Source: Methylocapsa sp. S129
GTDB taxonomy: Bacteria; Pseudomonadota; Alphaproteobacteria; Rhizobiales; Beijerinckiaceae
NCBI RefSeq assembly: GCF_009765995.1
Contig: NZ_LMUI01000008.1
Coordinates: 224,044-283,548 of the forward strand
Length of the DNA stretch: 59,505 bases
Reading direction: 5' to 3'
Each line of letters starts with the position of its first letter. Positions within the stretch are counted from its first letter, which is position 1. A program made the position numbers and the translations under genes. The notes under the pieces were generated by a model, which worked only from the letters and a program-made list of their open reading frames with translations, ran no database searches and was not told the origin of the DNA. This document shows positions 2,451 through 50,971 of the stretch, piece by piece.

Positions 2451-2452
2451 CC

Positions 2453-5272
<2,820 letters not shown>

Positions 5273-5636
5273 ATCAGACCTTTCCGACCGCCGACCGGCG
5301 CCAATCCAAATTTCCGGCCGTTTCCCGGGAAGCAAAAGCCCCACCTCAGCGTGACTCGCATGACCGGGGATGTCTACTCATACGGGACGCCGTCGCGCGA
5401 CAAGGGCGCGGCGCCCGAGCATTCCGTCAATCTTCCGGATATTGCGCCCGCCTGCGTCCGGACTTTTGAAGGCCCAAAACAGGGGCGATCCGTAAACGCG
5501 CACCGGCCTCGACAGGCTAAAACCCGCCTTTGCCGCGCAAGGACAGACGCTCGACGCTGAGATAGGAGGCGGCGCCAGCCTTGTCAATGTGGGGATCGCG
5601 GCGCCAAACGGCCCAAATCGGGCGCGTCGGGCCCGG
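5273..5636. other. secA upstream region
   Basis: These 364 bases between the acid phosphatase stop and the secA start should contain the secA promoter and leader, read on the minus strand. Short open frames on the plus strand, such as 5351-5560, are Arg/Ala-rich with no recognisable domain and are probably spurious. I see no clear regulatory element or RNA structure. Confidence 0.4.
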
Positions 5637-6347: not shown

Positions 6348-6584
6348 GGATTCTCACAAGAATGGAGAAGAGAAGGGCGGGTTACAAAATAAATTGAACA
6401 GGGCGTTTTTTATCATTTTCCGGGGCGTTTTCGTTCCTAAAGCCGCCTCGACTCGATCAAAAGAGAGTGAATCCTGACAACAACCTTGAATCCGCGTCGC
6501 GACGACCATAGTTTCGACATAAGACTTGTCCGGCTTTCCCGCTTGCGTATCAAGCCTCGGATCGCCATCAGCGGGGGCTGCGTC

Positions 6585-19562: not shown

Positions 19563-20417
19563 TCAGAGCCAATATACGATGCGGCGGTTCCCCCGCGACA
19601 ACAACAAGATCGCGATGAGATAACCTACCGCGCACAAGCCAATGACGACCAGCCATGACAAGAGAGGCGGCGCCTCCCCAAGAAGAGGGGAACGGACAAT
19701 TTCAATCAAATGATACAACGGGTTGACCTGTGCGATTATCTGAGCCGTTCCCAGCGAGCTTGCGGGCCACATAATCGGTGTGGCGAACATCGCAATTTGG
19801 ATTGCAGTCGCTATAAGTTGGACGACATCGCGATAGCGAGCGCTGAGAACGGCGACAACAATGCCGACCCACATCTGGTTCGCGAAGAGGAGAATGAGTC
19901 CCGGGAATATCAAAATATCGGCCCAGGAGAATTTCAGTCCAAATATAATTCCTATCGGGATGATAAGGACAATAGTATGAAGAAATATAATAAGGCTGCG
20001 CCAAAGGACACGAAATACGTACACCGTAAATGGTAGGCGAATCTGCTTGATAATGCCGCTGCTATCGACAAAGGCCGAGCAAGATTCGATGGTCGTCCCT
20101 GAGATAAACCCCCAGGTAATAAGCCCTACGGCTATGTAGGGAAGATAGAGCGCGATTTCCATTTTGAAAATGCGACTATAAACCACCCCCAGCAACATGA
20201 CATAAAGCGCCATGCTGAGCGTGATCCAGAACGGCCCTAAAACCGAGCGTCGATAGCGCTGCAGAATGTCGTTCCAGCCTAACATCGTCCATAGACGCCA
20301 GGCCTTCAGGCCGGCGCTCAGATCATCGGCGCCAATGCTGAAAGGGCCCCGGGCTTTCATGTGAGGGTGCGCATTTTGGTCAATATCATCGCCATAGGTT
20401 GCCGACTCTAACTGCAT
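19563..20417 (-). CDS. wzm: Polysaccharide ABC exporter permease (Wzm/KpsM type)
   Basis: A 284-residue ABC-2 permease with six predicted membrane segments after a cytoplasmic N-terminus. The sequence ends in FLLSRGNRRIVYWL-like basic residues typical of Wzm. The cytosolic part contains the conserved AWRLWTMLGWNDILQRYRRS. With the adjacent ATPase it exports a lipid-linked polysaccharide across the inner membrane. The start is the ATG at 20415-20417. The gene lies between the GT2 gene (114 bases upstream) and wzt (15 bases downstream). Confidence 0.9.
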   Translation of the reverse strand: MQLESATYGDDIDQNAHPHMKARGPFSIGADDLSAGLKAWRLWTMLGWNDILQRYRRSVLGPFWITLSMALYVMLLGVVYSRIFKMEIALYLPYIAVGLITWGFISGTTIESCSAFVDSSGIIKQIRLPFTVYVFRVLWRSLIIFLHTIVLIIPIGIIFGLKFSWADILIFPGLILLFANQMWVGIVVAVLSARYRDVVQLIATAIQIAMFATPIMWPASSLGTAQIIAQVNPLYHLIEIVRSPLLGEAPPLLSWLVVIGLCAVGYLIAILLLSRGNRRIVYWL

Positions 20418-22627: not shown

Positions 22628-23650
22628 ATGCTCGATCTCGTCACGGGCGGAGCAGGATTTATCGGAAGTCATCTGGTCGACCAATTGATTGCTTCCGGCC
22701 GCCGCGTGCGCGTTATCGATAATTTCGCCGTGGGTCGCCTCGCCAATCTTGAACAGCATCAGCAAAACGACGCGCTTGAAATCATCGAATGCGATGTTTC
22801 CGATAAGGACAAGGTCGACAAGGCATGCGCAGGCGTGGAGCGCATCTTTCATCTTGCCGCTCGCGCCGACGTTGTGCCCTCCATCCAAGAGCCCGAAGAT
22901 TATTTCAGGGCGAATGTGGATGGGACGTTCGCGATCCTGGAGGCGGCGCGCAAACGGCAAGTCAAGCGTCTGGTCTATGTCGCGTCCTCGTCTTGCTACG
23001 GCATTCCAGACGTCTACCCCACGCCCGAAGACACGCCCGCTGATCCGCAATATCCCTATGCGCTGACCAAATATCTCGGCGAACAATTGGTCATGCACTG
23101 GGCGCAAGTCTATGGATTGCCTGCGGTTTCCGTTCGTTTCTTCAATGTCTACGGACCGCGGGCCCGCACCAGCGGGACATATGGCGCGGTATTTGGCGTG
23201 TTTCTTGCGCAATTATTGGCTGGAAAGCCTCTGACCATTGTTGGCGACGGCGAGCAGACAAGGGACTTTACGTTCGTCAGCGACGTCGTCGACGCTCTGA
23301 TGACTGTCGCCAAGAGCGATCGTGTCGGAGATATCTATAACGTCGGCAGCGGCCGTCCCGTCAGCGTCAACGAGCTGGTTCGCCTTCTTGGCTCGCCCGA
23401 GAGCGTCCATATTCCCAAGCGCCCCGGCGAGCCCGATTGCACTTTTGCCGACATATCCAAGATCGAACGCGATCTCGGCTGGAAACCCAAAGTGCCCTTC
23501 GCCGAAGGCGTCAAGGTGATGCTCGACAACATGAAATATTGGAAAGACGCGCCTGTTTGGACGGTCGATAGCATTAAGGACGCAACGACCGACTGGTTCA
23601 AGTTTCTGGGACCGCAATCTGTTGCAAAAAGCGCGCAGGGAATTCAGTGA
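22628..23650 (+). CDS. NAD-dependent sugar-nucleotide epimerase (extended SDR)
   Basis: A 340-residue extended SDR, related to UDP-glucose/GDP-mannose epimerases and ADP-heptose epimerases. The nucleotide motif is VTGGAGFIGSHLVDQ, with FHLAARADV, the catalytic SSSCYG and YALTKYLGE (YxxxK), and FVSDVVDAL plus YNVGSGRPVSV in the sugar domain. It could invert a centre or convert the activated heptose made by the neighbouring enzymes. The gene opens the main plus-strand operon and its TGA abuts the next ATG directly (23648-23653), so the two are probably translationally coupled. Confidence 0.88.
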   Translation: MLDLVTGGAGFIGSHLVDQLIASGRRVRVIDNFAVGRLANLEQHQQNDALEIIECDVSDKDKVDKACAGVERIFHLAARADVVPSIQEPEDYFRANVDGTFAILEAARKRQVKRLVYVASSSCYGIPDVYPTPEDTPADPQYPYALTKYLGEQLVMHWAQVYGLPAVSVRFFNVYGPRARTSGTYGAVFGVFLAQLLAGKPLTIVGDGEQTRDFTFVSDVVDALMTVAKSDRVGDIYNVGSGRPVSVNELVRLLGSPESVHIPKRPGEPDCTFADISKIERDLGWKPKVPFAEGVKVMLDNMKYWKDAPVWTVDSIKDATTDWFKFLGPQSVAKSAQGIQ

Positions 23651-25225
23651 ATGGCGTCAAATGCTGCGAGTTTTGAAGGCGCCGCGCCGGAGCGTCTGAC
23701 GACGCGTTCGAAAATCCTCACTGTCGCCGAGGTTGGGGAAGCCGTAGAAAAGCGGCGCCGGAAGGGGCTTGTTGTCGTTCAGGCGCACGGCACCTTCGAT
23801 CTTCTCCACCTTGGGCATGTGCGCCATCTGGAGGCCGCCAGAGCGCTCGGCGATGTCCTTGTCGTCACCATCACCGCGGATCGTTTTGTCAACAAGGGTC
23901 CCGGCCGGCCGGTCTTCACCGAAGCCCTGAGAGCCGAAATGCTGGCGGCCCTGCATTTCGTCGATTACGTCGCCATCGCCGAGGCGCCTGATGCGATCAG
24001 CGCCCTGGAGACGATCCGTCCGGCGATCTACGCCAAGGGGCAAGACTATCAAAATCCCGACGGCGACGTGACGGGGAAGATCGCTCTCGAGCGTCAGACC
24101 GTGGAAGCGCATGGCGGCGAAATCCATTTCACCGATGAGGTCACCTTTAGTTCGAGCGAGTTGATCAATCGGCACTTCAATTTGTTCGAGCCTCACGTCC
24201 GCGAGCATCTTTCCGATCTTCGCGACGACGGTGGTCTGGCCACCATTCTGGCGTTGATCGAGAGCATAAAGGACTATCGAGTCGTCCTTGTCGGCGATGC
24301 GATTATCGATGAATACGAATACGTGCTTCCGATGGGAAAACCGCCCAAGGAACACATCATTGCGACTCGCTACCAGGATAGCGAGATTTTCGCTGGCGGC
24401 GTGTTTGCTGCGGCCAATCACGTGGCGTCGTTCTGCGCAGAGGTGGACGTCATCACCTGCATCGGAACGAATAACAGCCACGAAGAACTCATTCGCAAAA
24501 ATCTCAAGCCGAATGTGCGCCTCCATGCGTTCAAGCGACCAAACTCGCCCACGACGCTCAAGCGGCGTTTTGTCGATCCCTCGTCCATAAGAAAACTGTT
24601 TGAAGTTTATCATATGAACGATGAACCGCTGACGGATGATCTTGAGAAGCAACTTAAGGCTTTGGTCGGCCGGCTCTGTCCGAAAGCGGATGTCGTGATC
24701 GCGACGGACTTTGGCCACGGACTCATTGGGCCCAAGATCGTTCAGCAATTGACGGCGCTATCCCCATTTCTCGCGGTTAATACGCAAAGCAACAGCGCAA
24801 ATATGGGTTACAACCTCGTGACCCGCTATCCGCGGGCCGACTACATCTGCATTGATGCGCCGGAGGCGAGGCTGGCGCTTAGCGATCGCCTTTCCACCGT
24901 TGGCGATATCGCCCACCGCCTTGCGGAACGGATCGCCGATTGTCCGAAGTTTATCGTAACTCACGGCAAACATGGGTGCGTCACATTTGAGCGCGGCGGC
25001 GTGGTTCACACGATTCCGGCTGTCGCGCGCAAAATCGTCGACACCGTCGGCGCGGGCGACGCTTTTCTCGCTGTCACCTCTCCTCTGGTCGCCGCGGGAG
25101 CGCCGATGGACATCGTCGGCTTTATCGGCAATGTAGTCGGCGCCCTCAAGGTGGAAATCGTCGGACACCGCTATTCCATTGAAAAAGCCTCTCTCATCAA
25201 GGGCGTCACCGGACTTCTGAAGTAA
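23651..25225 (+). CDS. Nucleotidyltransferase-PfkB kinase fusion (HldE-like, domains in reverse order)
   Basis: A 524-residue bifunctional protein. Residues 40-190 form a RfaE2-type nucleotidyltransferase (HGTFDLLHLGHVRHL, HLGH at 53-56; TADRFVNKGPGRP). Residues 225-524 form a PfkB carbohydrate kinase (RfaE1-like) with VGDAIIDEYEYVLP and the catalytic TVGAGDAFLAV (GAGDAF at 467-472). E. coli HldE has kinase first and nucleotidyltransferase second, so the order here is reversed. The combined activities would phosphorylate a heptose 7-phosphate at C1 and transfer a nucleotide after GmhB action. Whether the nucleotide is ADP cannot be told from sequence. It lies between an epimerase gene and gmhA. 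Confidence 0.88.
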   Translation: MASNAASFEGAAPERLTTRSKILTVAEVGEAVEKRRRKGLVVVQAHGTFDLLHLGHVRHLEAARALGDVLVVTITADRFVNKGPGRPVFTEALRAEMLAALHFVDYVAIAEAPDAISALETIRPAIYAKGQDYQNPDGDVTGKIALERQTVEAHGGEIHFTDEVTFSSSELINRHFNLFEPHVREHLSDLRDDGGLATILALIESIKDYRVVLVGDAIIDEYEYVLPMGKPPKEHIIATRYQDSEIFAGGVFAAANHVASFCAEVDVITCIGTNNSHEELIRKNLKPNVRLHAFKRPNSPTTLKRRFVDPSSIRKLFEVYHMNDEPLTDDLEKQLKALVGRLCPKADVVIATDFGHGLIGPKIVQQLTALSPFLAVNTQSNSANMGYNLVTRYPRADYICIDAPEARLALSDRLSTVGDIAHRLAERIADCPKFIVTHGKHGCVTFERGGVVHTIPAVARKIVDTVGAGDAFLAVTSPLVAAGAPMDIVGFIGNVVGALKVEIVGHRYSIEKASLIKGVTGLLK

Positions 25226-25240: not shown

Positions 25241-25822
25241 GTGCGCGATAGAATCACGGCCTATTTCGATACCCTGGACCGCGTGACGCGAAACGCTGAA
25301 TGCACGACGGCGAACGGCGAGACGCTTTCGCTCGGCGAAGCGTTCGAGCGCGTGCGCGACATGGCGCATGCGACGCATGATCGCGGCGACAAAATCATGT
25401 TCATCGGCAATGGCGGCAGCGCCGCCATCAGCAGCCATATGGCGACTGATTTTTCCAAAAACGGAGGCCTGCGGTCGATGACCTTCAACGAAGGCTCGGC
25501 GCTCACCTGCCTGGGAAACGACCTCGGTTATGAAAATGTCTTCGCCAAGCAAATCGAGTGGCATGGACGGCCGGGCGATCTGGTGATCGCGATCAGCAGT
25601 TCGGGACGTTCGCCCAATATCATCAAGGGCGTGGAGGCTGCGCGGGCGCAAAGCTGCAGCATCATAACGTTGTCAGGCTTCAGCCAGGACAATCCGCTGC
25701 GCAACAAGGGCGCCGTGAATTTTTATGTGCGTTCGCCCGAATACGGATTCGTCGAACTCGCACACCAAGCCCTGATTCACGCGATCCTTGACCTCGACAG
25801 GGGCTGGCGCCCGGAACATTAA
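25241..25822 (+). CDS. gmhA: SIS-domain sedoheptulose 7-phosphate isomerase-like protein
   Basis: A 193-residue SIS protein of the GmhA type, converting sedoheptulose 7-phosphate to D-glycero-D-manno-heptose 7-phosphate. Substrate and metal motifs are FIGNGGSAAISSHMATDF, AISSSGRSPNII, ITLSGF and the His-rich end FVELAHQALIHAIL. The start is GTG 25241 with a ribosome-binding AGAGG at 25228-25232. It is co-directional with the kinase fusion (15 bases apart) and with the SDR downstream (31 bases), so it is in the same operon. The substrate could be a different phosphorylated ketose; a dedicated transketolase encoded downstream fits supply of a C7 ketose. Confidence 0.88.
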   Translation: MRDRITAYFDTLDRVTRNAECTTANGETLSLGEAFERVRDMAHATHDRGDKIMFIGNGGSAAISSHMATDFSKNGGLRSMTFNEGSALTCLGNDLGYENVFAKQIEWHGRPGDLVIAISSSGRSPNIIKGVEAARAQSCSIITLSGFSQDNPLRNKGAVNFYVRSPEYGFVELAHQALIHAILDLDRGWRPEH

Positions 25823-25853
25823 AGATTCGACCTCTTTGCGACAGGTGGGAAAA

Positions 25854-26852
25854 GTGGAAAATCGTTTCAAGCGCGTGATGGTGACCGGCGGCGCCGGCTA
25901 TGTCGGATCGAGCCTCATTCCGAAGTTGCTTGCCGCGGGATATGAAGTCTCGAATCTGGATCTCTATCTTTACGGCGACATATTCGCGCACCTTGCCGAT
26001 AATCCGGCTCTCACGCAGACCAAGGGGGATCTTCGCAATCCAGCGGATGTGAAGCGCGCGCTCGCAGGCTGCGACGCGGTCATTCATCTTGCGTGCATTT
26101 CGAATGATCCATCCTTCGATCTTGATCCGAATCTCGGCAAATCGATCAATTTCGATTGCTTCCGGCCGTTGGTCAAAGCCAGCAAGGATGCGGGGGTCAA
26201 GCGATTCATTTATGCATCGTCGTCCTCGGTCTATGGCATCAAGAACGATCCTGAGGTCACGGAAGAATTGGCGCTGCTGCCGCTCACGGATTATTCGAAA
26301 TTCAAGGCGATGTGCGAGGATGTTCTCGAACAGGAGCGCGAACCAGGTTTTGTGGCCGTTACGATTCGCCCGGCGACCGTCTGCGGCTATGCGCCCCGGC
26401 TTCGCCTCGACCTGACCGTCAATATTCTCACAAATCTGGCGATCAACAACGGCCGCATCACGGTTTTTGGCGGCGAGCAGCTTCGACCGAACATTCACGT
26501 CGAAGACATGACGGATCTCTACCTCCTCCTCTTGCAGACTGAGAATTCCCAGATCGATGGCAAGATATGGAACGCCGGCTACCATAATCTAAAAGTTCGT
26601 GCGATCGCTGAGATGGTGCGCGAGCGGGTTGGGCCTGCCGTCGAGATCGTCGTGACGCCGACCGACGATCATCGCTCGTACCATGTTTCATCCGAGAAGA
26701 TTCATCGCGAGCTTGGCTTTGTCGCCAAGCGAACCGTTAGCGACGCGATTGTCGATCTGAAAGACGCATTTGCCGCCGGGAAAGTGCCGAACTCGATGAC
26801 CGATGACCGCTATTACAATATCAAGCGCATGCAGTCGGTTCACCTGCGTTAA
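25854..26852 (+). CDS. NAD-dependent sugar-nucleotide epimerase/dehydratase (extended SDR)
   Basis: A 332-residue extended SDR. It has VMVTGGAGYVGSSLIP at the start, VIHLACISNDPSF, the Ser/Thr-rich catalytic SSSSVYGIKND, and TDYSKFKAMCED, which contains Tyr and Lys in a YxxxK spacing, then FGGEQLRPNIHVEDM. The GTG at 25854 was chosen because GGTGGGA lies just upstream and the Rossmann motif starts nine residues in; a TTG at 25788 lies inside gmhA. The VCGYAPRLRLDL stretch occurs in heptose-modifying epimerases of capsular clusters. It probably works on the nucleotide heptose; the product cannot be assigned. Confidence 0.85.
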   Translation: MENRFKRVMVTGGAGYVGSSLIPKLLAAGYEVSNLDLYLYGDIFAHLADNPALTQTKGDLRNPADVKRALAGCDAVIHLACISNDPSFDLDPNLGKSINFDCFRPLVKASKDAGVKRFIYASSSSVYGIKNDPEVTEELALLPLTDYSKFKAMCEDVLEQEREPGFVAVTIRPATVCGYAPRLRLDLTVNILTNLAINNGRITVFGGEQLRPNIHVEDMTDLYLLLLQTENSQIDGKIWNAGYHNLKVRAIAEMVRERVGPAVEIVVTPTDDHRSYHVSSEKIHRELGFVAKRTVSDAIVDLKDAFAAGKVPNSMTDDRYYNIKRMQSVHLR

Positions 26853-26910: not shown

Positions 26911-28782
26911 ATGCGCCCGCCAATAAGCGCCGTCCGCATTCTCCTGCCGGTCTGGGGAAAGGAATATGTCGAGCAGTTTCTCGATTTCTGCCTGCCGACT
27001 CTCCTGGCCGATGGAAACCTACCGTCGCTGTGCCGTCGCACCGCCTGCACCTTCGTGCTTTTCGCACGCACGGACGATGTCGAAGCGATCCGGGGCAATC
27101 CGGGTTGGCGCGCGCTTGAGGACATGTGTGCGGTCGAAATCGCCACGATCGATCATCTCATAAGCGCTAGCCATTCCACCACCATAACCCTCGCCTATGT
27201 CAGCGGCATCAGGTCTTGCAAGAGCGACTTGCTGGATACGTGTTTCATTTTTCTCGTGTCTGACTACGTTCTCGCCGACGGCGCCTTGAGCAATGTGCTG
27301 GCGCGCGTTGTCGCGGGCGCGAGCGGCGTTCTCGCAGGCAATTTTCAGATTGTCGGCGAAGGGGCGGCGCCGGTTCTGGCGCAGGCGCGCGCCGGCGGGC
27401 CTTATCTGTCGATTCAGCCACGCGACCTTATTCGTTTAGCGCTGGATCATCTCCATCCCGCGACGATCGCGAATTTCGCGGATTCGCCGGTTCGTCACGA
27501 CGCCGCGAGCAATCGTCTCTTCTGGCGCGTGGATGATTCCACCATTCTCGGGCGGTTTTACCTGATGCATATGATCGCGATCCGCCCCGAAACAGCGGAG
27601 TTTATCATTGCCGCGCCGTCCGACTATTCGCTGATTCCCGAATTATGCCCGTCGGGCGCCGTGGCGACGATCGAGGATTCTGACGAATATTGCGTCGTCG
27701 AACTGCAGTCGCGACGGCAAGGTCAGACAAATCTGCGCCTCGGCCCGCTGACGCCTGCGGCAGTGGCGACCTCGCTGAGCAATTGGGCGACCGGTCAGCA
27801 TCGGGAAAATGCTGGTCACGCGATCGTCTTTCATTCCGACAAAATCAAATCCGAGGTGGCTGAAACGATTGCCGCGTCGAAACGGTTCATAAGCGAGGTC
27901 GAGCGGCATTTGCCGTCTGCTCCGCAACCTTTTCGCTATCATCCCTATTGGTGCGGCGCGATCGATCATCATGAAAGAACTTCGCCGACCCCTGTCGATT
28001 TTCCCGCTTTGAGCAAGATTCTCGGCGATCCGAATTTCGCGATCGCGGTGAAGTCTGCGCGTGCGATCCGGCTGCGCGCCATGCTTTTGGGTCGTGCGCC
28101 GGATTTTCGTCCATGGCATCCGCGATGGCTGGATGTTCAAAGATTCTGGATCGCGCTCAAGCAAACGGCTGGTGGCGCATCGATCATCATTGTCGGCGAT
28201 ATTCCAGCGCTGCTTCGCCGGCCTATCGAATTGCGGGCGCAGGCTTATGGCGCGCGGCGCGTCGACCATGCAGACCTGCGGGAAATCAGAGATTTGACAG
28301 GTCGAAGCGCCGCAAATCCAGGGGAGCGATTTGACGTTTGCGTTTTGATATTATCCCCAAGGAGCCTTGAGGCTCACGCGGCAATCGTGGAGCAATTTGT
28401 TCCAATTATTCAACCTGCCGGGCGCATTTTGCTTGTCATCGGCGATCTTTTTGAAGAAGCCTCGCGCTCCTTCGGTCCTGACCGACTGACGCTGTTGCCG
28501 ATTTCCGCGACTTCGGGTCTACAAGTGGAAGAATTCAGAGTCGTAGGGGCGAGCCCGGGAAGATTATTGATACAATCGACGATGATGGCGCTCGCCCGTT
28601 CGTCTTTTGGCGGCGGCTTGCGTAGCTTACTGAGAATAGCTGGCGCCGGGATGCTTGCAATCGTCAGTGGGGGTTTGAATGTTGGCGCGCTCTTGCGGTC
28701 CCAAGCGTCCGAACAGTCGCAATGTTCAAGCGTCGCACTGACGCTGCGGCTGAGATCGCCCGAAGGTCACAATGACTGTTAA
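26911..28782 (+). CDS. Large protein of unknown function, paralogue 1 of a tandem pair
   Basis: A 623-residue protein I cannot assign. Its N-terminal 300 residues share many blocks with the next gene: LLPVWGKEYVEQFLDF near the start, ASHSTTITLAYVSG, CFIFLVSDYVLADG, LDHLHPATIANF, NRLFWRVDDST, GRFYLMHMIAIRPE and IEDSDEYCVVELQ. The Asp-rich SDY..AD and WRVDD pieces recall metal-binding sites of GT-A glycosyltransferases, which is inference. The C-terminal part has a Rossmann-like stretch (FDVCVLILSPRSL, IQPAGRILLVIGD) and a hydrophobic segment near the end. ATG 26911 gives the same MRPP-x-LLPxWG opening as the paralogue's MRGPP start. It follows an epimerase gene by 58 bases in the heptose operon. 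Confidence 0.75.
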   Translation: MRPPISAVRILLPVWGKEYVEQFLDFCLPTLLADGNLPSLCRRTACTFVLFARTDDVEAIRGNPGWRALEDMCAVEIATIDHLISASHSTTITLAYVSGIRSCKSDLLDTCFIFLVSDYVLADGALSNVLARVVAGASGVLAGNFQIVGEGAAPVLAQARAGGPYLSIQPRDLIRLALDHLHPATIANFADSPVRHDAASNRLFWRVDDSTILGRFYLMHMIAIRPETAEFIIAAPSDYSLIPELCPSGAVATIEDSDEYCVVELQSRRQGQTNLRLGPLTPAAVATSLSNWATGQHRENAGHAIVFHSDKIKSEVAETIAASKRFISEVERHLPSAPQPFRYHPYWCGAIDHHERTSPTPVDFPALSKILGDPNFAIAVKSARAIRLRAMLLGRAPDFRPWHPRWLDVQRFWIALKQTAGGASIIIVGDIPALLRRPIELRAQAYGARRVDHADLREIRDLTGRSAANPGERFDVCVLILSPRSLEAHAAIVEQFVPIIQPAGRILLVIGDLFEEASRSFGPDRLTLLPISATSGLQVEEFRVVGASPGRLLIQSTMMALARSSFGGGLRSLLRIAGAGMLAIVSGGLNVGALLRSQASEQSQCSSVALTLRLRSPEGHNDC

Positions 28783-29001
28783 TGACTGTTCTTGAGCCGA
28801 GCGACGCGTCGGCGCCCATATCCTGATTCAGGGCGGGAGCGGCGACGACGTTGGATGATGCGTGGCGCCTTCTTTGCCAGCCGCGTCGCCACATGTCAGA
28901 ATCCCGCCCAATCCCATACTTCGTGACATCGAGAAATTCGCCGCTTGGACCGACCTCATTTTCCCCCCGATCGTCTCGTCGATGCGCCGACGCCAAGCAG
29001 C
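28783..29001. other. Spacer between the two paralogues
   Basis: A 219-base gap separates the first paralogue from the chosen start of the second. The second frame extends upstream to a TTG at 28945, which would add 19 Pro/Asp-rich residues not shared with paralogue 1. Duplicated TGACTGT (28770s-28790s: AATGACTGTTAATGACTGTT) sits at the end of the first gene and is a short direct repeat that may mark the duplication junction. Confidence 0.4.
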
Positions 29002-31053
29002 ATGCGCGGGCCGCCAAAATATGTGCGCTGTCTCTTGCCGATTTGGGGGGATCGCTACGTCCGACAGTTTCTCGACGTAGGTTTGCCAACCTGGCTCGCC
29101 GAAGGAAATTTGCCGGCATTGGCCAGGACTCTTCCAACGAATTTTGTCCTCCTCACCACGAGAGAGGATGAAGGCGTCATCCAGCGTCATCCGATGTTCG
29201 AGCGGTTGAAGACACTGTGCTCTGTTGTGGTGCATCACATCGACCATCTCATTACGAATTTTGGTCACTCGACGACAATTACCTTGGCGTATGCCGAAGC
29301 CGTTCGCTCCGTCGGTCCGCAAATGCTCGACACCTGCTTCTTTTTTCTGGTGTCCGACTACATCGTGGCCGATCGTTCGTTTTCGAATGTACTCAAGCAA
29401 ATGATGAGCGGATGCAGCGGCGTTCAAGTCGGCAATTTCCAGGTTGTCCAGGAGGACGCGACCCCTTGGCTATCGGCTAAACGAGACAATGTATCGGGCG
29501 TCATCAGCTTTTCGTCTCGTGAGTTGATGGGTTGGGGCTTGTCGCATCTTCATCCGGCAACCGTCGCGAACATCGTCAATGACCCGTCGAATCACAACGA
29601 TCACACCAATCGACTGTTTTGGCGCGTCGACGATCTGACGTTGATCGGGCGTTTCTATCTCATGCATATGATCTGCATCAGGCCGGAGAGAACCGACTTC
29701 GTCATAGGGTCCTCTTGCGACTATTCCTTCATTCCTGAGATGTGTCCGAGCGACAACGTCGCCATCATCGACGATTCGGACGAATACCTTGTGGTCGAAA
29801 TGCAGCCCCGCGCCCATGAGGCCGCGATGCTGCGAGCGGGGCCGCAAACGATCGCGAGACTTGCGCGGACGTTGTCGAAATGGACGACGGCGCGACATCG
29901 CAAGAATGCCGACACGACCGTGGTTTTTCACGCCGGTGAAATTTCATCAAATTTGCCGGACGCTGAAGAGGAGGCAAGCCGCTTCATTGCTTCGGTTCGC
30001 AAACGACTGGGCCAGCCCAGTCCCTTCCGCGATCACCCCTACTGGCTGGGCGCAATCGCATCGTTCAAGGAAGCCAAAGGCCTGCGTCTGACTCGCCGCG
30101 AAATGCGCTACGTCATCGGCCTGGAACATCCCGATTTCAGTCGAGGACATATCAGGGCATGGCTGTCTGCGGCGGTGCACTTTGGCCTCTTGGGCGCCGG
30201 TCTCAAATTGCGCCCATGGCACCCGAGATGGCCCGACCATGAACTCGTCTTGGAATCGATTTCCTCCTCTCTCCAAAACAAAGACGAAAGGCGCCTGTTC
30301 GTTGCGGACCGTCCCACCGTGTTCACAACGTCGATGCCCGACGACGGACGGCGCAATTTTCGAGCCCAGCGAAATATATTCATGCGGCAATCCCCAGATG
30401 CTTTTGGGGCGGCGCACGGAACGTTCGACGCCTGTCTCATCGAGATGGAGGAAAGCGATATGCCGAGCGGCGACGAATTGATCGATCGCATCGCGCCGCT
30501 GATGAAAGATGGCGCGACGGTTATCGTGTCGGTCTACAATCGAAGGAAAAAGTCCAACGCCATTGATTTTGCGAAAATGATGGGCGCCGAGAGCGCCAAG
30601 CTGTTGAGGCCAGCGGTAAGATCCAGCAAGTTCTACTTTGTTCGGTCGCCAAAGCTGCAATGGCGCTCTTTCGACGTAGCGACGCGAATGGCGCGGTTTG
30701 CCCGCAGACGGCCGATCGTCGGTTTACCTCTTCTCGCCTTGGCCGGATTGCCGCTGGCCCTTTGCATCCTCGTGAGTAACAGATTCAGCAGCGTTATCAA
30801 GGATCAAACCCCCGTTGCCGTCGTTTCCAGTTTTCTGATGGTTATGCATATCGGGTCAAATGCGAATCTCGACATACGCGCCGATTCATCGGACCGCCTC
30901 GATCAAAACAGCCGACGATTGCGCGATCGGCTCGGCGACGATAAGACAACGGCTTCTAATCCGGACGTCTGGTTCACTCCCGATCTCGCTTCCATCGTCG
31001 GCGAGACCCGATCGTCAGCCGACGCCGCTACGAGCCCAGAGGCCCTATCGTGA
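29002..31053 (+). CDS. Large protein of unknown function, paralogue 2 of a tandem pair
   Basis: A 683-residue paralogue of the preceding protein. It repeats the same order of blocks: CLLPIWGDRYVRQFLDV, GHSTTITLAYAEA, CFFFLVSDYIVAD, LSHLHPATVANIV, NRLFWRVDDLT, GRFYLMHMICIRPE and IIDDSDEYLVVEMQ. The C-terminal half also keeps KLRPWHPRWPDHE (paralogue 1 has FRPWHPRWLDVQ) and a Rossmann-like FDACLIEMEES..IAPLMKDGATVIVSVY. A hydrophobic segment (GLPLLALAGLPLALCILV) near residue 600 suggests membrane attachment. The start is ATG 29002, by analogy with the other copy. Its TGA overlaps the GTG of the methyltransferase gene. Function unknown; the context is synthesis or modification of a heptose glycan. 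Confidence 0.75.
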   Translation: MRGPPKYVRCLLPIWGDRYVRQFLDVGLPTWLAEGNLPALARTLPTNFVLLTTREDEGVIQRHPMFERLKTLCSVVVHHIDHLITNFGHSTTITLAYAEAVRSVGPQMLDTCFFFLVSDYIVADRSFSNVLKQMMSGCSGVQVGNFQVVQEDATPWLSAKRDNVSGVISFSSRELMGWGLSHLHPATVANIVNDPSNHNDHTNRLFWRVDDLTLIGRFYLMHMICIRPERTDFVIGSSCDYSFIPEMCPSDNVAIIDDSDEYLVVEMQPRAHEAAMLRAGPQTIARLARTLSKWTTARHRKNADTTVVFHAGEISSNLPDAEEEASRFIASVRKRLGQPSPFRDHPYWLGAIASFKEAKGLRLTRREMRYVIGLEHPDFSRGHIRAWLSAAVHFGLLGAGLKLRPWHPRWPDHELVLESISSSLQNKDERRLFVADRPTVFTTSMPDDGRRNFRAQRNIFMRQSPDAFGAAHGTFDACLIEMEESDMPSGDELIDRIAPLMKDGATVIVSVYNRRKKSNAIDFAKMMGAESAKLLRPAVRSSKFYFVRSPKLQWRSFDVATRMARFARRRPIVGLPLLALAGLPLALCILVSNRFSSVIKDQTPVAVVSSFLMVMHIGSNANLDIRADSSDRLDQNSRRLRDRLGDDKTTASNPDVWFTPDLASIVGETRSSADAATSPEALS

Positions 31054-31778
31054 CTCAAATATCTGCGAGCGCCGCGGCGATAACCCCTCCCCGGGAGGAC
31101 GGCACCCGGGAGCCTCAATACAACAATTGTCTCGAAATTCGCGACGCCGAGGGACTTACCCCGCTCGGGCTCATGACCAACCAGGTGTGGCATGACGACC
31201 CGCGTCGCCTGACATTCCTGCTCGCCCGCTACAAATTTGTTTCAAAGATGCTCGGCGGCAAAAAATTCGTCGGCGAGCTTGGCTGCGGCGACGCCTTTGG
31301 CACGCGTATCGTGCAACAGGAAGTCGGCAAGGTCGTCGCCTATGATTTCGATCCGGTTTTCATTGAAGATATAAAACAACGTCAGTCGAAAAAATGGCCG
31401 ATCGAAGCTCATTTCCACGACATCGTGGAAGCGCCGCTGCCCCACAAACACGACGGCGTTTACAGTCTCGATGTGATCGAACATATCAGCGTAAGCAATG
31501 AAGACGCCTATCTCGCCAATCTGCGCCGTTCGCTGACGGATGACGGCGTCCTGATCATCGGCACGCCGTCGCTGGAATCGCAAGAATACGCCTCTCCTCC
31601 GAGCAAGGCGGGCCATATTAACTGTAAAAGCGGCGCTCAATTGAAAGCGCTGCTTGGCAAGTATTTCCATAACGTTTTCTTGTTCTCGATGAATGATGAA
31701 GTTGTACATACCGGGTTCTATCCGATGGCGCATTACCTGTTTGCGGTTTGCTGCCAGAAGAAGAACGACCAAGCGTAA
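31050..31778 (+). CDS. SAM-dependent class I methyltransferase
   Basis: A 242-residue Rossmann-fold methyltransferase. The SAM motif is FVGELGCGDAFGTRIV, then YDFDPVFIEDI, the acidic motif YSLDVIEHIS, and LTDDGVLIIGTPS. It starts with GTG at 31050, overlapping the end of paralogue 2 (GTGA), so translation is coupled. The family includes methyltransferases that act on nucleotide sugars, glycan ends and isoprenoids; its place in a heptose operon favours O-methylation of a sugar or a glycan end. No further assignment is possible. Confidence 0.82.
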   Translation: MTQISASAAAITPPREDGTREPQYNNCLEIRDAEGLTPLGLMTNQVWHDDPRRLTFLLARYKFVSKMLGGKKFVGELGCGDAFGTRIVQQEVGKVVAYDFDPVFIEDIKQRQSKKWPIEAHFHDIVEAPLPHKHDGVYSLDVIEHISVSNEDAYLANLRRSLTDDGVLIIGTPSLESQEYASPPSKAGHINCKSGAQLKALLGKYFHNVFLFSMNDEVVHTGFYPMAHYLFAVCCQKKNDQA

Positions 31779-31780
31779 AT

Positions 31781-32395
31781 ATGCGACGCATTGGTCTCGA
31801 CTTCGACAACACCATCATTTGCTATGACGACGTATTTTTGTCCGCCGCGAAGGAGCGTGGGCTATTGCCAGCCGATTTCCACGGCGGCAAGCAGCTTGTG
31901 CGGGACGCCATTCGGTTGTTGCCCCACGGCGAGGTGGCCTGGCAAAAGCTGCAAGGCTTCGTCTACGGTCGGGGGATTGGCGGCGCGCAGGCTTTCGAAG
32001 GGCTCGGCTCCTTCTTGAAGCGCACCCAGGCAGAGGGAGATACGCTCTTCGTCGTCAGCCATAAAACTGAATATGGACATTTCGATCCCGACAGGATCAA
32101 TTTGCGCGTCGCGGCGCTTAATTGGATGAAAGCGCGAGGCTTTTTCGACGCCAGCGGTTACGGTGTCGCGGTCGAGAACGTCTTTTTTGAAAGCACGCGC
32201 GACGAAAAGCTTCGCCGGATAGCGGCAACCGGCTGCAACGTGTTTATCGATGACCTGGAGGAGGTTTTCGCCGATCCGAATTTCCCGCCGGGCGTCGAGC
32301 GCATCCTGTTTTCAGACAGGCCCGCCGTCGCCGCGGCCGTCCAATTCAAGGTCTGCGCGAACTGGCCCTTGATAGAGGAAGCCGTTTTCGCATGA
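31781..32395 (+). CDS. HAD superfamily phosphatase
   Basis: A 204-residue HAD protein. Motif I is IGLDFDNTIICYDD (DxD nucleophile pair), with LFVVSHKTEYG as the motif II Ser region and NVFIDDLEEVFADP as the acidic motif IV. No Cys-rich zinc loop is seen, so it is not a second GmhB. Its start is ATG 31781, directly after the preceding stop (TAAATATG); the longer frame to 31748 is a shadow. The 3' end overlaps the kinase gene by 4 bases (ATGA). A HAD phosphatase and kinase pair following a GmhA-like isomerase suggests one more phosphate step in making the activated sugar. Confidence 0.82.
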   Translation: MRRIGLDFDNTIICYDDVFLSAAKERGLLPADFHGGKQLVRDAIRLLPHGEVAWQKLQGFVYGRGIGGAQAFEGLGSFLKRTQAEGDTLFVVSHKTEYGHFDPDRINLRVAALNWMKARGFFDASGYGVAVENVFFESTRDEKLRRIAATGCNVFIDDLEEVFADPNFPPGVERILFSDRPAVAAAVQFKVCANWPLIEEAVFA

Positions 32396-33399
32396 TCCAT
32401 TCCGACGCTGCGGTTTCTCCAGAAGACGTTGCGCGCGGACTGGTCGGAGGTCCCGTCGAGCAATTGCGCCATGTCGGGGGCGGACGCAACAGTCGCGTCT
32501 ATCGCGTCGACGCGCATTCCGGGACTTTCGCTCTCAAGCAATATCCGTCCCGCGAGGATGATGCGCGCGACCGGCTTGGCGCCGAGGTCGCCGCCCTCGA
32601 TCTGATGGCGAGACACGGTTTTGCGATGGTTCCCCGTGTCGTCGCCGTGGATCGAAAACGGAATTTCGTTCTTCTGAGCTGGGTCGAAGGCGAACTCGTT
32701 CGCGCCGTCAGCACGGAAGACATCGACCAATCCGTCGCTTTCCTGTCCCGATTGCACGAGTTGCGGCATACATCGGCGATCCCAGCCTCTCATTTGGCGG
32801 CGGAGGCCTGTCTGTCGGGGCTGGAGATCGAGCGCCAGGTCAGGGCTCGCCTCACCGACCTGCGCGCCATCCAGGACGAATCCGCCCTGGAGGAATTTAT
32901 GCAATCGGCGTTTTCGCCTGCGCTGGAGCGGCTGGCGGCGAGAGCCCGCCGGACGCTCTTTGAAGGCGGTTTGTCGTTCGAGCAAGAGCTCGCCCAGGAG
33001 CGCCGCAGTCTCGTGCCCTCGGATTTCGGCTTCCACAATGCCCTTCGCCATCGTGACGGGCGGCTGACTTTCATCGATTTCGAGTATTTTGGCTGGGACG
33101 ATCCGGTCAAGCTGTCCGCGGATATATTGCTTCATCCAGGGACGCCGGTCTCTGAGGATTTGCGGGCCCATTTTCGCCGTGGCGCGCAACAGCTCTATGG
33201 CTCGGACGGGACCTTTGCACACCGTCTGGATGCATTTTATCCGCTGTTCGGGTTGCGGTGGGTGTTGATCCTGTTAAATGAGTTTCATCCTGAGCGCTGG
33301 CGTCGCCGTATTTTGGCGGGCGCCGTCGAAGATTGGAGCGACGCGAAGGCGCGGCAGTTGCAGGCAGCGCGAGATTTGCTATCGCAGCTGGCGATCTAG
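32392..33399 (+). CDS. APH-like phosphotransferase
   Basis: A 335-residue protein of the aminoglycoside phosphotransferase/choline-kinase fold. It has a nucleotide-loop region GGRNSRVYRVDA, the Lys strand TFALKQYP, the catalytic Brenner-type loop VPSDFGFHNALRH (usually HxDxxxxN; here S replaces the first His) and the metal site FIDFEYFGWDDPV. The likely role is phosphorylation of a sugar, not antibiotic resistance, given its neighbours. The first His of the HxD motif is replaced by Ser, so catalysis may be altered. It overlaps the HAD gene start-stop (ATGA) and leads into the transketolase genes. Confidence 0.8.
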   Translation: MIHSDAAVSPEDVARGLVGGPVEQLRHVGGGRNSRVYRVDAHSGTFALKQYPSREDDARDRLGAEVAALDLMARHGFAMVPRVVAVDRKRNFVLLSWVEGELVRAVSTEDIDQSVAFLSRLHELRHTSAIPASHLAAEACLSGLEIERQVRARLTDLRAIQDESALEEFMQSAFSPALERLAARARRTLFEGGLSFEQELAQERRSLVPSDFGFHNALRHRDGRLTFIDFEYFGWDDPVKLSADILLHPGTPVSEDLRAHFRRGAQQLYGSDGTFAHRLDAFYPLFGLRWVLILLNEFHPERWRRRILAGAVEDWSDAKARQLQAARDLLSQLAI

Positions 33400-33410
33400 T
33401 GGAGAATTTC

Positions 33411-34250
33411 ATGGCGTCGATGCTGAAGGCGGTGAATCAAGTTTCTCCGCCGTTGGATGAGCGATCCAAATATCTGCGTCGCCTGATCGTGAGAGCTTTG
33501 GACAAAGGCGAGCGGGGACATATCGGCTCGTCGATGTCGCTCGTTGAAATATTGCGCGCCCTCTACGACGACGTCCTGCGTTTTCGCCCGGTGGAGCCAA
33601 AATGGCCTGACCGCGATCGCATGATCCTGAGCAAGGGTCATGGCTGCATCACATTATACGTCATGCTGGCCGACAAGGGCTTCATTCCTGTGGAAACGCT
33701 CGACACGTTCTGCCATCGGGATTCGATCCTTGGCGGTCATCCCGAATCCAATAAGATTCCGGGCGTGGAGGCGTCGACCGGCGCGCTCGGCCACGGCCTG
33801 TCCATCGGCGTTGGGATGGCGCTGGCCGCCAGGATGCAGAAACGCGACAGCCGCGTTTTCGTCGTGATGGGAGACGGGGAAATCAATGAAGGTTCGGTTT
33901 GGGAAGCCGCGCTGAGCGCCGGTAAGCACAAGCTCTCCAACCTCATCGCGATCGTCGACTATAACAAAATTCAATCGGCTGGACCGACCCGCGAGATCCA
34001 GGATCTGGAGCCCCTCCTCGACAAATGGCGCGCTTTTGGGTTCGCGGCGATTGATGTCGACGGTCACGATCTTCCGCAGCTTCGCGCGGCGCTCCAGAGC
34101 GCGCCGCTGGAGCGGGATCGTCCGACGGCGATCATCTGCCATACGGTCAAGGGGAAGGGCATTCCCTTCGCCGAACACGATCCCAACTGGCATCACAAGG
34201 CCAAGGTGGCCCCGGATGTCATCGCCAAAATGTACGCGGCTTTGGAGTAG
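33411..34250 (+). CDS. Transketolase, N-terminal (thiamine-binding) subunit
   Basis: The first half of a split transketolase, 279 residues. It binds thiamine diphosphate and a divalent metal through GDGEINEGSVWEAAL and VDYNKIQ, and has GHIGSSMSLVEIL and SKGHGCITLYVMLADKG. The C-terminal subunit is the next gene. Such heterodimeric transketolases have two-gene architecture in many bacteria. The start is ATG 33411, with GGAG at 33401-33404. It lies in the heptose operon, so it may supply sedoheptulose 7-phosphate or extend a sugar by two carbons. It follows the kinase gene after 11 bases. Confidence 0.9.
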   Translation: MASMLKAVNQVSPPLDERSKYLRRLIVRALDKGERGHIGSSMSLVEILRALYDDVLRFRPVEPKWPDRDRMILSKGHGCITLYVMLADKGFIPVETLDTFCHRDSILGGHPESNKIPGVEASTGALGHGLSIGVGMALAARMQKRDSRVFVVMGDGEINEGSVWEAALSAGKHKLSNLIAIVDYNKIQSAGPTREIQDLEPLLDKWRAFGFAAIDVDGHDLPQLRAALQSAPLERDRPTAIICHTVKGKGIPFAEHDPNWHHKAKVAPDVIAKMYAALE

Positions 34251-34253
34251 GAC

Positions 34254-35204
34254 ATGCGCAAGACTTGTCTCGATTGCGTCTACAAGCTTGCCAAGGAAGA
34301 TCCGCGGATCGTCTTTATCGGATCGGACCTGAGCCCGGGCCTCCTTAGCGGAATGCAGAAGGAGATGCCGGAGCGCTGGTACATGGAAGGGATCATGGAG
34401 CAGAACGTGGTCGGTATGGCCGCGGGAATGGCGCTGGAAGGGTTCATTCCCTACGCGAACACGATCGCGACGTTTTTCACCCGGCGCAGCTATGAACAGG
34501 TCGCGATCGACCTCTGTCTGCACAATCTGCCCGTGCGGCTGATTTCCAACGGGGGGGGCCTCGTCTATGCGCCGCTTGGTCCGACTCATCTCGCCATTGA
34601 GGATTTAGCGACCATGCGCGCATTGCCCAACATGACGGTGGTGGCGGTGTGCGACGCCGATGAAATGACGCGTTTCATGGACGTGTCCGTCGACTGGCCC
34701 GGTCCGATTTACATCAGGCTGGCGAAGGGCGGCGATCCGATCGTCAGCAAGGCGGAGAATGGCTTTGCTATCGGCAAGGCCATCGTTATGCGGCGCGCCG
34801 GCGCGCATCGTCCGGTCGTTTTCATGACCACAGGCGTCATGACGACCAACGCGTTGAAAGCCGCCGATGCGCTCAAGAGCGATGGCGTCGATAGTTCAGT
34901 CGTCCATTTCCATACCGTCAAGCCGCTCGACAAGAGCGCGATCCTTGAGCACGCGAAAGACGCCAGGCTGGTTGTTACGGTCGAGGAAGGAATCGCCATT
35001 GGCGGGTTCGGAAGCGCCGTGACGGATATCCTGGTTGAGGAAATGGGTCCGGCTATGCCGAGGATGAAGAGGATTGCTCTGCCCGACGCCTTTTCCAAGA
35101 ATTACGGCGTGCAAAACGATCTCTTCGACGTCTATGGTCTGACGCCGCGCCAGATCGCGGCGACCGTTCACAATACGCTTGATCAGTATAAACTTGTCGC
35201 CTGA
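34254..35204 (+). CDS. Transketolase, C-terminal subunit
   Basis: The second half of the split transketolase, 316 residues. The pyrimidine-binding domain has the catalytic Glu in MEGIMEQNVVGMAAGMA, then ANTIATFFTRRSYEQ, GPTHLAIEDLATMR and the C-terminal domain with EEGIAIGGFGSAV. It acts as a partner of the upstream subunit, spaced 3 bases. Related two-subunit enzymes include 1-deoxyxylulose-5-phosphate-synthase-like and pyruvate dehydrogenase E1 proteins, but GIMEQN and the His/Pro-rich loop are transketolase-like. In this operon it may provide a C7 ketose or a C2 unit for an unusual sugar. Confidence 0.9.
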   Translation: MRKTCLDCVYKLAKEDPRIVFIGSDLSPGLLSGMQKEMPERWYMEGIMEQNVVGMAAGMALEGFIPYANTIATFFTRRSYEQVAIDLCLHNLPVRLISNGGGLVYAPLGPTHLAIEDLATMRALPNMTVVAVCDADEMTRFMDVSVDWPGPIYIRLAKGGDPIVSKAENGFAIGKAIVMRRAGAHRPVVFMTTGVMTTNALKAADALKSDGVDSSVVHFHTVKPLDKSAILEHAKDARLVVTVEEGIAIGGFGSAVTDILVEEMGPAMPRMKRIALPDAFSKNYGVQNDLFDVYGLTPRQIAATVHNTLDQYKLVA

Positions 35205-35278: not shown

Positions 35279-36142
35279 ATGTTTCTCCTTATCGGCGGCA
35301 ATTCTGAAATCGGCGCCGCCACGGCTCGCCGCCTGAGAGAGCAGGGTCAGCCGGTCGTAACAACGACGCGTCGCGCGGCCGATCTGGGCGAGGATGAATT
35401 GTTCCTCGATCTCGAACAGCTATCGGATGATTGGCGGCCTCCCGAAGGAGTCGAGGCGGCCTGTATTTTTGCGGCAATAGCCCGGCTCGCGGCTTGCGAA
35501 GCCGATTGGGCGGGCTCCTATCGCGTCAATGTCGCGCAGACATTAGCTTTGGCCGAGAAGCTGGTGGCGAAGGGTATATACACTTTGTTTTTGTCGACCA
35601 ATCAGGTCTTTGACGGAACGCGCGCCCAGGTCCCTTCGGATGCGCCGCTGTCGCCGGTCAGCGCCTATGGTCGCCAGAAGGCCGCGACGGAGACCGTCTT
35701 CAAGACGTGGATTGCGGCAGGCGCCCCGGCTGGCATTCTGAGGCTTGCGAAAGTGGTCTCACCGGATATGGCGCTTGTTCACGGCTGGCGGCGCAGCCTC
35801 TCGATGGGGGAGCCAATCAGGGCGTTCCACGACATGACGATGGCGCCGACGCCAACCGGACTCGTCGCGCAGGCGATTAGTCGCCTGATCGAGGATCGGG
35901 AGCCGATCACGGCCCAACTGACAGGACCCGAAGATGTCAGCTACGCCGCCGTGGCGCGCTTTATCGCGAACGCAATCGGCGCTGACGATGATCTCGTCAA
36001 GCCTGTCTCGGCGCTCGACAACGGCATGCCCGCGAGCGCCGTTCCTCTCAATACGACACTGGACAGCTCGTATCTCGCCAAGCGTTATGGCCTCATCGCG
36101 CCTGACCCATGGACAGCGCTCAGGGCTGTTCTCGACGCTTGA
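35279..36142 (+). CDS. RmlD-like sugar-nucleotide-binding protein
   Basis: A 287-residue extended SDR of the RmlD (dTDP-4-dehydrorhamnose reductase) type. The Rossmann motif is FLLIGGNSEIGAATARRL, then IFAAIARLAACEADW, the Tyr and Lys of VSAYGRQKAATE (YxxxK), and LSTNQVFDGTRAQVPS. The usual GxxGxxG is replaced by GGNSEIG. It probably reduces a 4-keto or 3-keto sugar nucleotide. It begins 74 bases after the transketolase stop. Confidence 0.82.
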   Translation: MFLLIGGNSEIGAATARRLREQGQPVVTTTRRAADLGEDELFLDLEQLSDDWRPPEGVEAACIFAAIARLAACEADWAGSYRVNVAQTLALAEKLVAKGIYTLFLSTNQVFDGTRAQVPSDAPLSPVSAYGRQKAATETVFKTWIAAGAPAGILRLAKVVSPDMALVHGWRRSLSMGEPIRAFHDMTMAPTPTGLVAQAISRLIEDREPITAQLTGPEDVSYAAVARFIANAIGADDDLVKPVSALDNGMPASAVPLNTTLDSSYLAKRYGLIAPDPWTALRAVLDA

Positions 36143-50907: not shown

Positions 50908-50971
50908 ATCGCCCTGTCCTTCAGAATCTTTTGGCGAGCAACAACATGCGGGCGCACCCGTCAAGTTGGAC

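Follow-up and report, generated by a model that had tools for sequence, protein, structure and literature searches.

Two putative glycosyltransferases with a GT-A-like core, from a family without a Pfam or NCBIfam entry, in a polysaccharide locus of Methylocapsa sp. S129

Two consecutive genes of Methylocapsa sp. S129, here called UNK_A and UNK_B, probably encode glycosyltransferases with a GT-A core that belong to a family represented in neither Pfam nor NCBIfam and that serve one ABC-exported polysaccharide. Both lie on the forward strand of the window, the 59,505-nt stretch of DNA that we analysed (contig NZ_LMUI01000008.1, positions 224,044-283,548, forward strand). UNK_A (26911..28782, 623 aa) consists of a GT-A-like core (residues 1-310, 26911..27840 of the forward strand, profile E 2.3e-128), an HPYW/HPRW linker and a methyltransferase-like C-terminal half. 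UNK_B (29002..31053, 683 aa) has the same layout, with its core at 29002..29931 (+), residues 414-640 of its C-terminal half at 30241..30921 (+) and a predicted hydrophobic helix at residues 571-596. Each protein would move a sugar from a nucleotide donor, which the neighbouring genes would provide, to a chain being extended at the inner membrane face, and the finished chain would exit through the ABC exporter encoded upstream. The C-terminal half may be a methyltransferase-like domain that has decayed and carries a hydrophobic stretch, serving most likely to dock the protein at the membrane or to hold the adjacent methyltransferase MT1, which would methylate the product; enzyme activity, donor, linkage, residue roles and docking are what we infer for the two proteins.

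An earlier note on this DNA had described two large related proteins of 623 and 683 residues at this place, and both open reading frames were found; they share 40% identity over 519 aa (BLASTP, 380 bits, E 1e-127, with a 702-aa form of UNK_B), a likeness that, judged by sequence, is far above chance. Both start codons are uncertain: the frame of UNK_A is open back to 26803 and the start at 26911 agrees with the homologues, while that of UNK_B is open back to 28945 (TTG), 29002 being the start chosen by the earlier reader. The shared blocks named previously (e.g., SDY, WRVDD and HPRW) are present in both proteins and the core is kept by homologues elsewhere. Counted along UNK_B, identity amounts to 52.6% over residues 1-310 and 32% over 311-412, and since it falls to 12% over 413-640, the C-terminal halves are similar in layout and not in sequence. 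In a tree of 42 of the 43 assembled rows (one row of locus L061, whose domain limits were unset, was excluded), UNK_A groups with L003 (98/82) and UNK_B with L006 and L008 (96/86); the tree tool flagged long branches, and UNK_A, UNK_B, L003, L006, L007 and L008 are not among them. As each protein joins other loci, they are not each other's nearest kin, and the tree indicates two separate old lineages with no fresh duplication. A recent local duplication is thereby ruled out, and the term "duplicated" given earlier to the pair does not fit in that sense.

The note had recognised no family, and the searches agree: neither protein reached a Pfam family at E≤1 or a credible NCBIfam family, and Pfam, NCBIfam and PDB sequence searches named no known family for the core. 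A literature search covering titles and abstract openings found no description of the core family. The case for a GT-A fold comes from a model of the core of a relative in locus L005 (59% identical), with a pTM of 0.67, averages of 75-96 in its first 12 ten-residue blocks and pLDDT below 50 at residues 150-155, 177-223 and 257-316. When compared with the PDB by Foldseek, 47 of the 50 matches listed (1,223 in total at E≤10) were glycosyltransferases, LH3 entries counted, with E-values from 1.1e-4 and low TM-scores by query (0.22-0.39 for the 50 listed). A Rossmann-like nucleotide-binding half in GT-A order is thus predicted, at low TM-scores and only within the N-terminal half of the core that was modelled with confidence, and supports with this reserve the GT-A enzymes suggested in the note. 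Help from profiles was weak. In a set of 38 cores (unique domains with i-E <1e-15 over more than 240 profile positions, truncated cores such as that of L009 excluded), four reached PF00535 at E≤1 (best 6.9e-4) and 12 other families were reached by at most two cores each; the curated cut-off of PF00535 was not attained (14.8 against 23.3 bits in L054). With hhalign, a six-row GT2 alignment places its AADD stretch opposite D119 (P 0.017), to be compared with P 0.11 for the GT2 protein of the window alone and P 0.029 for the window GT4, a control of different fold, so that the sequence links of the core to GT2 are weak.

The predicted core fold resembles that of GT2-type GT-A enzymes (PF00535; dolichyl-phosphate mannose synthase 5mm1, ArnC 8vxh): like them, the core has WG after strand 1, T52 (33/38) and D56 (23/38) after strand 2, and the invariant D119, then mostly DG, after strand 4. 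Unlike them, it has neither a full DxD nor a Pfam match above cut-off, its C-terminal part differs, and it carries an invariant W15-G16 and N36 of its own. Mannosylglycerate synthase 2bo4 and the WrtF fucosyltransferase 9omi are among the listed Foldseek matches, with just 8-18% identity in the structural alignments, which does not indicate membership. The remaining three of the 50 listed matches are nucleotidyltransferases of related fold (IspD 4kt7, ADP-Glc pyrophosphorylase 5w5t and GDP-Man pyrophosphorylase 7x8k), and it could be argued that the proteins activate a sugar phosphate for the pathway, all the more as the locus requires activated sugars. We regard such a sugar-nucleotide nucleotidyltransferase as very improbable, given the 47 glycosyltransferases among the same matches, the lack of any nucleotidyltransferase among the 13 Pfam families that the 38 cores matched, and the HldE-like nucleotidyltransferase already encoded in the locus.

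Conservation across the 38 cores also bears on whether these putative glycosyltransferases are active. W15, G16, N36 and D119 of the SDY block are invariant (38/38), and H184 (37/38), D258 (35/38), W207 (33/38) and D240 (32/38) nearly so. Most GT-A enzymes retain a DxD or variant metal site (PMC7185993); no full DxD is present in UNK_A, which reads FLVSDYVLAD, or in UNK_B, which reads FLVSDYIVAD. Of the two acidic sites proposed in the note, SDYxxAD is half supported, its first acid (D119) being invariant and its second (D124) found in only 25 of 38 cores; WRVDD is rejected as a metal site, and unsupported as a nucleotide-sugar site, by the low conservation of D210 (10/38) and D211 (14/38). 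D119, where strand 4 ends, may be the sole remaining Asp of a DxD-type site, and H184, D240 and D258 are candidates for additional metal binding or a catalytic base, including the xED base and the C-terminal His, to which a forced hhalign alignment assigned no residue. With one Asp left of the DxD and no SAM motif in the C-terminal half, one or both proteins might conversely be catalytically dead GT-A-like scaffolds or chaperones that bind the chain or partner enzymes and transfer nothing. COSMC offers a precedent: related to GT31 but lacking DxD and xED, it works as a chaperone (PMC7185993). Its partner is a GT31 enzyme. We hold a dead scaffold or chaperone to be unlikely, as four invariant residues and several near-invariant acids over 38 divergent cores fit active enzymes better, and so do a stand-alone core copy of 416 aa (L022, 3177-4427) and the loci with at least two cores (L004, L021/L022, L061, L063, L069, L070 and L071), several cores per locus being expected of linkage-specific transferases. 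Moreover, the Pfam-annotated part of the window (about 12-51 kb) holds few other transferases, namely a GT4 at 17579, a GT2 at 20532 and a GT2-like protein at 38648.

The C-terminal half looks like a methyltransferase by predicted fold. All 50 listed Foldseek matches of the whole UNK_B model are of class I methyltransferase fold (E from 8.1e-7), the best being the SAM methyltransferases AtmM (6uvq) and RebM (3bus); UbiG, MitM, GtmA and SpnF are also among them. The superpositions are poor (rmsd 7.7-19.8, TM-scores by query 0.14-0.20 over the 50 listed), and pLDDT block means are 63-89 over residues 401-620. This fits the degenerate methyltransferase fold of the earlier note, and its membrane anchor is matched by a hydrophobic stretch near the C-terminus that is clear in UNK_B (571-596) and borderline in UNK_A (576-594). 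Unlike AtmM and RebM, the tail shows no Gly-rich SAM loop when 13 aligned tails are inspected by eye, and hhalign did not connect it with the methyltransferases of the window; with profile support lacking, the predicted fold alone points to a methyltransferase. The absence of the loop suggests that the tail is probably not catalytic, and the "bifunctional" enzyme imagined at first is not borne out. For the same reasons, and because UNK_A and UNK_B share 53% identity in the core against 12% in the tail and a complete methyltransferase adjoins them, we give the lowest credit of all the alternatives to the idea that the UNK proteins act as methyltransferases, or as enzymes resembling them, with an N-terminal domain that merely selects the substrate, despite the uniform fold of the whole-model matches. 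Under the glycosyltransferase reading, the modifying activity more likely resides in that neighbour, the SAM methyltransferase MT1 (31050..31778, +), which shares its first 4 bases with the end of UNK_B. MT1 is fused to an UNK protein in L005 and L009 and adjacent in the window, L008 and L024; it was found in just 3 of the 17 core-bearing genomes searched (E 1e-10), which rules it out as an obligate partner.

The genes around the pair could supply both donor and export. Pfam annotates an ABC transporter ATPase (18807..19547, -) and an ABC-2 type export permease (19563..20417, -). On the forward strand follow SDR1, a sugar epimerase/dehydratase (22628..23650), an HldE-like gene with the nucleotidyltransferase half before the kinase half (23651..25225; at E 1e-5 the genome has no other match), a GmhA-like SIS isomerase (25241..25822) and SDR2, a second SDR sugar epimerase/dehydratase (25788..26852) directly upstream of UNK_A. 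Downstream, likewise on the forward strand, are HAD2 (31748..32395, no Pfam family above cut-off), presumably HAD-like by its DFDNT motif, an APH-family kinase (32392..33399), the N-terminal (33405..34250) and C-terminal (34254..35204, named from an annotated L004 relative) halves of a split transketolase, and a RmlD-like reductase (35279..36142, Pfam annotation). The "heptose operon" of the note is only a provisional label: the HldE-like and GmhA-like proteins both stay under the NCBIfam equivalog cut-offs (143.5 vs 521 and 83.4 vs 209.45 bits).

In other genomes, core genes frequently have heptose-like, kinase, split-transketolase and ABC-export genes close by. L007 has the same order as the window (SDR1-hldE-gmhA-SDR2-UNK-HAD2-APH-TKN-TKC), and an ABC export pair occurs within the stretch of up to 20 kb around the core in L006, L007, L020, L021/L022 and L023, and also in L065, L068, L069 and L071. 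Homologues away from glycan genes, which the note would have counted against itself, are indicated at 5 of 19 distant loci, where no gene resembling the sugar or export genes of the window was found save weak ABC-ATPase matches in one; the objection applies in part (sorted by eye, core-bearing stretches only). Nor do gmhA and the UNK genes always occur together. Strict co-occurrence of core and HAD2 was not found, only a modest enrichment: of the 23 genomes with HAD2, 5 belong to the 25, out of 385, that carry a core (Fisher p 0.012), or 4 of 22 when the own genome is left out (p 0.040).

Of 385 genomes sampled from the class, 25 carry the core (first 310 residues) by profile search, its own genome counted. 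Among plasmids, one record carries it, Solidesulfovibrio pDCAR1 of another phylum, with three matching places and two proteins identified, the hypothetical proteins WP_129356123.1 and WP_165352188.1 (20-22% identity to UNK_B). Like UNK_B, these bear the core beside relatives of HAD2, the APH kinase, the split transketolase and MT3; unlike UNK_B, they have it C-terminally, behind a longer N-terminal part whose TPR matches lie below cut-off. Viral contigs and phages held no core relative, and a viral link was dropped.

If our reading is right, a glycosyltransferase family present in those 25 genomes goes unannotated together with enzymes of many surface polysaccharides, core-bearing loci gain an assignable transferase, and the UNK proteins exemplify a glycosyltransferase bearing a decayed methyltransferase half. 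It would also flag a recurring cassette of heptose-like genes, HAD, APH kinase and split transketolase, whose product may be a sugar that is uncharacterised and possibly branched. More speculatively, and with rather less than even chances in our eyes, a GT-A core could have captured a methyltransferase domain that decayed into a membrane-docked platform handing the new sugar to MT1, so that a rare sugar from the heptose-like and split-transketolase pathway would be attached and receive its methyl group in a single coupled step ahead of ABC export, and the wider core would form a CAZy family yet to be defined.

Neighbours at the distant loci were picked as longest open frames, some of which may be false, and 101 of 143 chosen ORFs from 13 of the 19 loci were searched against Pfam; radical SAM, methyltransferase, TPR and ABC families are common, and the 25 commonest of 82 families include only one GT family, GT41 (2 ORFs), which speaks against the glycosyltransferase reading. 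Searches with the core family itself gave PF00535 weakly, and TPR, Fasciclin, HAD and methyltransferase domains outside the core.

The two tandem open reading frames singled out by the earlier note, UNK_A (26911-28782, 623 aa) and UNK_B (29002-31053, 683 aa), are real, and each most likely encodes a GT-A glycosyltransferase. Homology of the core, its conserved residues, gene order and fusions are observed, and the folds of both halves are predicted. By sequence the pair has indeed no recognised family: neither protein reaches a Pfam family at E<=1, UNK_B retrieves the PmrR model alone from NCBIfam, far below its cut-off, and PDB sequence searches gave no credible match for UNK_B or for two profiles of the core, the ~310 residues common to its relatives. 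PF00535 is reached by 4/38 cores (best E 6.9e-4), no other family being reached by more than two, and hhalign pairs the core with a six-row GT2 alignment at P 0.017, placing D119 on an ADD stretch; we regard both matches as weak hints toward a glycosyltransferase. Against them count twelve single-protein hhalign comparisons (P 0.029 to 0.71), the lowest value belonging to the window's GT4 protein, whose fold differs from that of GT2; the window's two GT2 proteins gave P 0.11 and 0.26.

Structure prediction points to the GT-A-type enzyme first proposed. The core was modelled on a relative from locus L005 (59% identical to UNK_B over the core) rather than on UNK_B itself, giving a pTM of 0.67 with a confident N-terminal half. 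Among the 50 PDB matches listed, 47 are glycosyltransferases (LH3 entries counted in), including dolichyl-phosphate mannose synthase, COLGALT1, CHSY3, GlfT2, ArnC, LARGE1, mannosylglycerate synthase, xylosyltransferase 1 and WrtF, and the other three belong to the nucleotidyltransferases, whose fold is related; with the back half of the model poor, TM-scores by query reach only 0.22-0.39. By predicted fold the UNK proteins are of a known kind, and by sequence they lie outside Pfam, NCBIfam and PDB matches; the family, set apart by these libraries alone, may already have a home in CAZy or the AlphaFold database.

W15, G16, N36 and D119 (UNK_B numbering) are invariant in 38/38 unique cores, followed by H184 (37/38), D258 (35/38), T52 and W207 (33/38 each) and D240 (32/38). 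Of the acidic sites proposed earlier, the SDYxxAD block keeps D119 throughout but D124 in 25/38 cores, and the WRVDD acids do not hold up (D210 in 10/38, D211 in 14/38). D119 would be the metal-binding Asp, and additional metal ligands and the base might be sought among H184, D240 and D258. A one-Asp site is by itself no argument against activity, because one account describes DxD as kept by most GT-A enzymes but lost in GT14 and prokaryotic GT6, and C-His as replaced by Asp in GT24 (PMC7185993).

The core occurs in several settings among the loci carrying relatives. It stands alone in a 416-aa protein (L022, 3177-4427), follows TPR repeats in L043 (TPR matches in L004, the Solidesulfovibrio plasmid, are below cut-off), and is present twice per chain in L044 and L070; tails in L035 and L038 reach Fasciclin or HAD models. 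The post-core parts of L035 943-2475 and L038 448-2460 exceed the Pfam cut-off for Fasciclin, the latter also carrying a HAD phosphatase domain. L070, whose contig includes L044, encodes two tandem ~1000-residue proteins (920-4156 and 4233-7265); each matches the core twice, one of these four matches being partial, and gmhA- and SDR2-like genes lie ~6 kb away.

In the closest group, window proteins included, a further ~220 residues make up a second half behind the core. AlphaFold modelling of whole UNK_B from seven sequences gave a weak model (pLDDT 58, pTM 0.39), for which all 50 PDB matches listed have a class I methyltransferase fold (best E 8.1e-7), AtmM, RebM, UbiG, MitM, GtmA and SpnF among them; these matches are probably attributable to residues about 410-560. 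A Gly-rich SAM loop is absent by eye from 13/13 aligned C-terminal halves, and hhalign found no link between the tails and the window's methyltransferases. In 10/13 proteins compared, hydrophobicity peaks close to the C-terminus (elsewhere in L008, L023 and L024). We interpret the tail as most likely a methyltransferase-like domain that has decayed, plus a hydrophobic stretch that may serve docking. The degenerate methyltransferase and membrane anchor suggested earlier accord with these fold matches, the missing loop and the hydrophobic stretch, but the structures superpose poorly (rmsd 7.7-19.8; query-based TM 0.14-0.20) and the Kyte-Doolittle value of UNK_A is borderline (1.66, against 2.5 for UNK_B).

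UNK_A and UNK_B are 40% identical across 519 residues, identity falling along UNK_B from 52.6% (1-310) to 32% (311-412) and 12% (413-640). A recent local duplication is rejected: in a tree of 42 cores UNK_A groups with L003 (support 98/82) and UNK_B with L006 and L008 (96/86). As judged from sequence, the two diverged long ago and either came together later or stayed side by side; at least two cores are present in several loci.

Gene order in L007 is that of the window (SDR1-hldE-gmhA-SDR2-UNK-HAD2-APH-TKN-TKC), with one UNK gene instead of two and no methyltransferase MT1 between; identities are 80% for SDR2, 78% for SDR1, 77% for TKN and 71% for HldE. In the window MT1 shares 4 bases with the end of UNK_B; it adjoins an UNK gene in L008 and, on the opposite strand, L024, is fused to an UNK protein in L005 and L009, and is found at another place within the stretch in L007 and L020. 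It was found in 3/17 core-bearing genomes searched, and its frequent partnership is therefore confined to the close group. Tail and MT1 fusions would make the UNK proteins a variant of GT-A glycosyltransferase. An ABC-2 export pair shares the stretch with a core in L006, L007, L020, L021/L022, L023, L065, L068, L069 and L071. We propose that neighbouring genes (HldE-like, GmhA-like, SDR and split transketolase) would supply the sugar donor, with methylation by MT1 and export by the ABC pair.

UNK_A and UNK_B are the sole copies in their genome at E 0.001 (UNK_B query), and matching genomes, own included, number 2/199 (family-level sample), 5/397 (order), 2/398 (phylum, first 8-row profile) and 25/385 (class, broader 16-row profile). 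A contig scan returned five loci (L005-L009), reaching close relatives only because two peptide patterns were used. One plasmid record matched, Solidesulfovibrio carbinolicus pDCAR1, at three places, two being proteins annotated hypothetical; phage records and viral contigs held no core relatives. Near two core proteins this plasmid, from another phylum, encodes relatives of HAD2 (43%), APH (38%), TKN (57%), TKC (52%) and MT3 (60%).

Glycan genes, which the earlier note expected beside homologues, were tallied by eye at 19 distant loci, as raw counts without control stretches: matches to export, heptose-like or transketolase genes are strong at seven (L065, L068, L069, L070, L071, L073, L075), sugar-related matches are weaker at seven (L058, L059, L061, L063, L064, L066, L074), and five show no convincing sugar or export gene (L060, L062, L067, L072, L076). 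Pfam searches of 101 neighbour ORFs from 13 of these loci reached 82 families, the 25 commonest including ABC, radical SAM, methyltransferase and TPR families and a sole glycosyltransferase family, GT41 (2 ORFs); this result is less telling than the gene-relative search. HAD2 occurs in 23/385 class genomes, five of them among the 25 core genomes (Fisher p 0.012; 4/22, p 0.040 minus the own genome). The core family is loosely tied to the pathway encoded here, which is what a single family of transferases acting on a range of glycans would be expected to show.

The genes for the HAD-like protein, the APH-family kinase and the split transketolase form a cassette (31748-35204) with relatives on the Solidesulfovibrio plasmid. 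The genome has five transketolase-N matches, two of which lie in 685- and 711-aa frames, and the split pair is therefore extra. A branched sugar is possible at this locus by analogy, because split-gene transketolases are proposed, not proven, as makers of the branched sugars of miharamycin and amipurimycin (PMC12247030). At E 1e-5 the genome yields one HldE-like match, the protein at 23651-25225; its nucleotidyltransferase (46-136) precedes its kinase (211-512), opposite to the order in the NCBIfam HldE model. Two large proteins of 1032 aa (39977-43075) and 811 aa (43096-45531) lack Pfam or NCBIfam matches at E 0.01 and plasmid matches at E 1e-5; for the latter there is a 30% relative in L068 (2343-4541), with a further core protein and an ABC export pair close by. 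A TylF-FkbM double methyltransferase (45633-47579) and a second FkbM-type protein (49678-50964) have 54-59% relatives in L005, L006 and L008, close to the UNK gene there, and an MBOAT O-acyltransferase (15764-17143), near the ABC exporter, has a 35% relative in L005.
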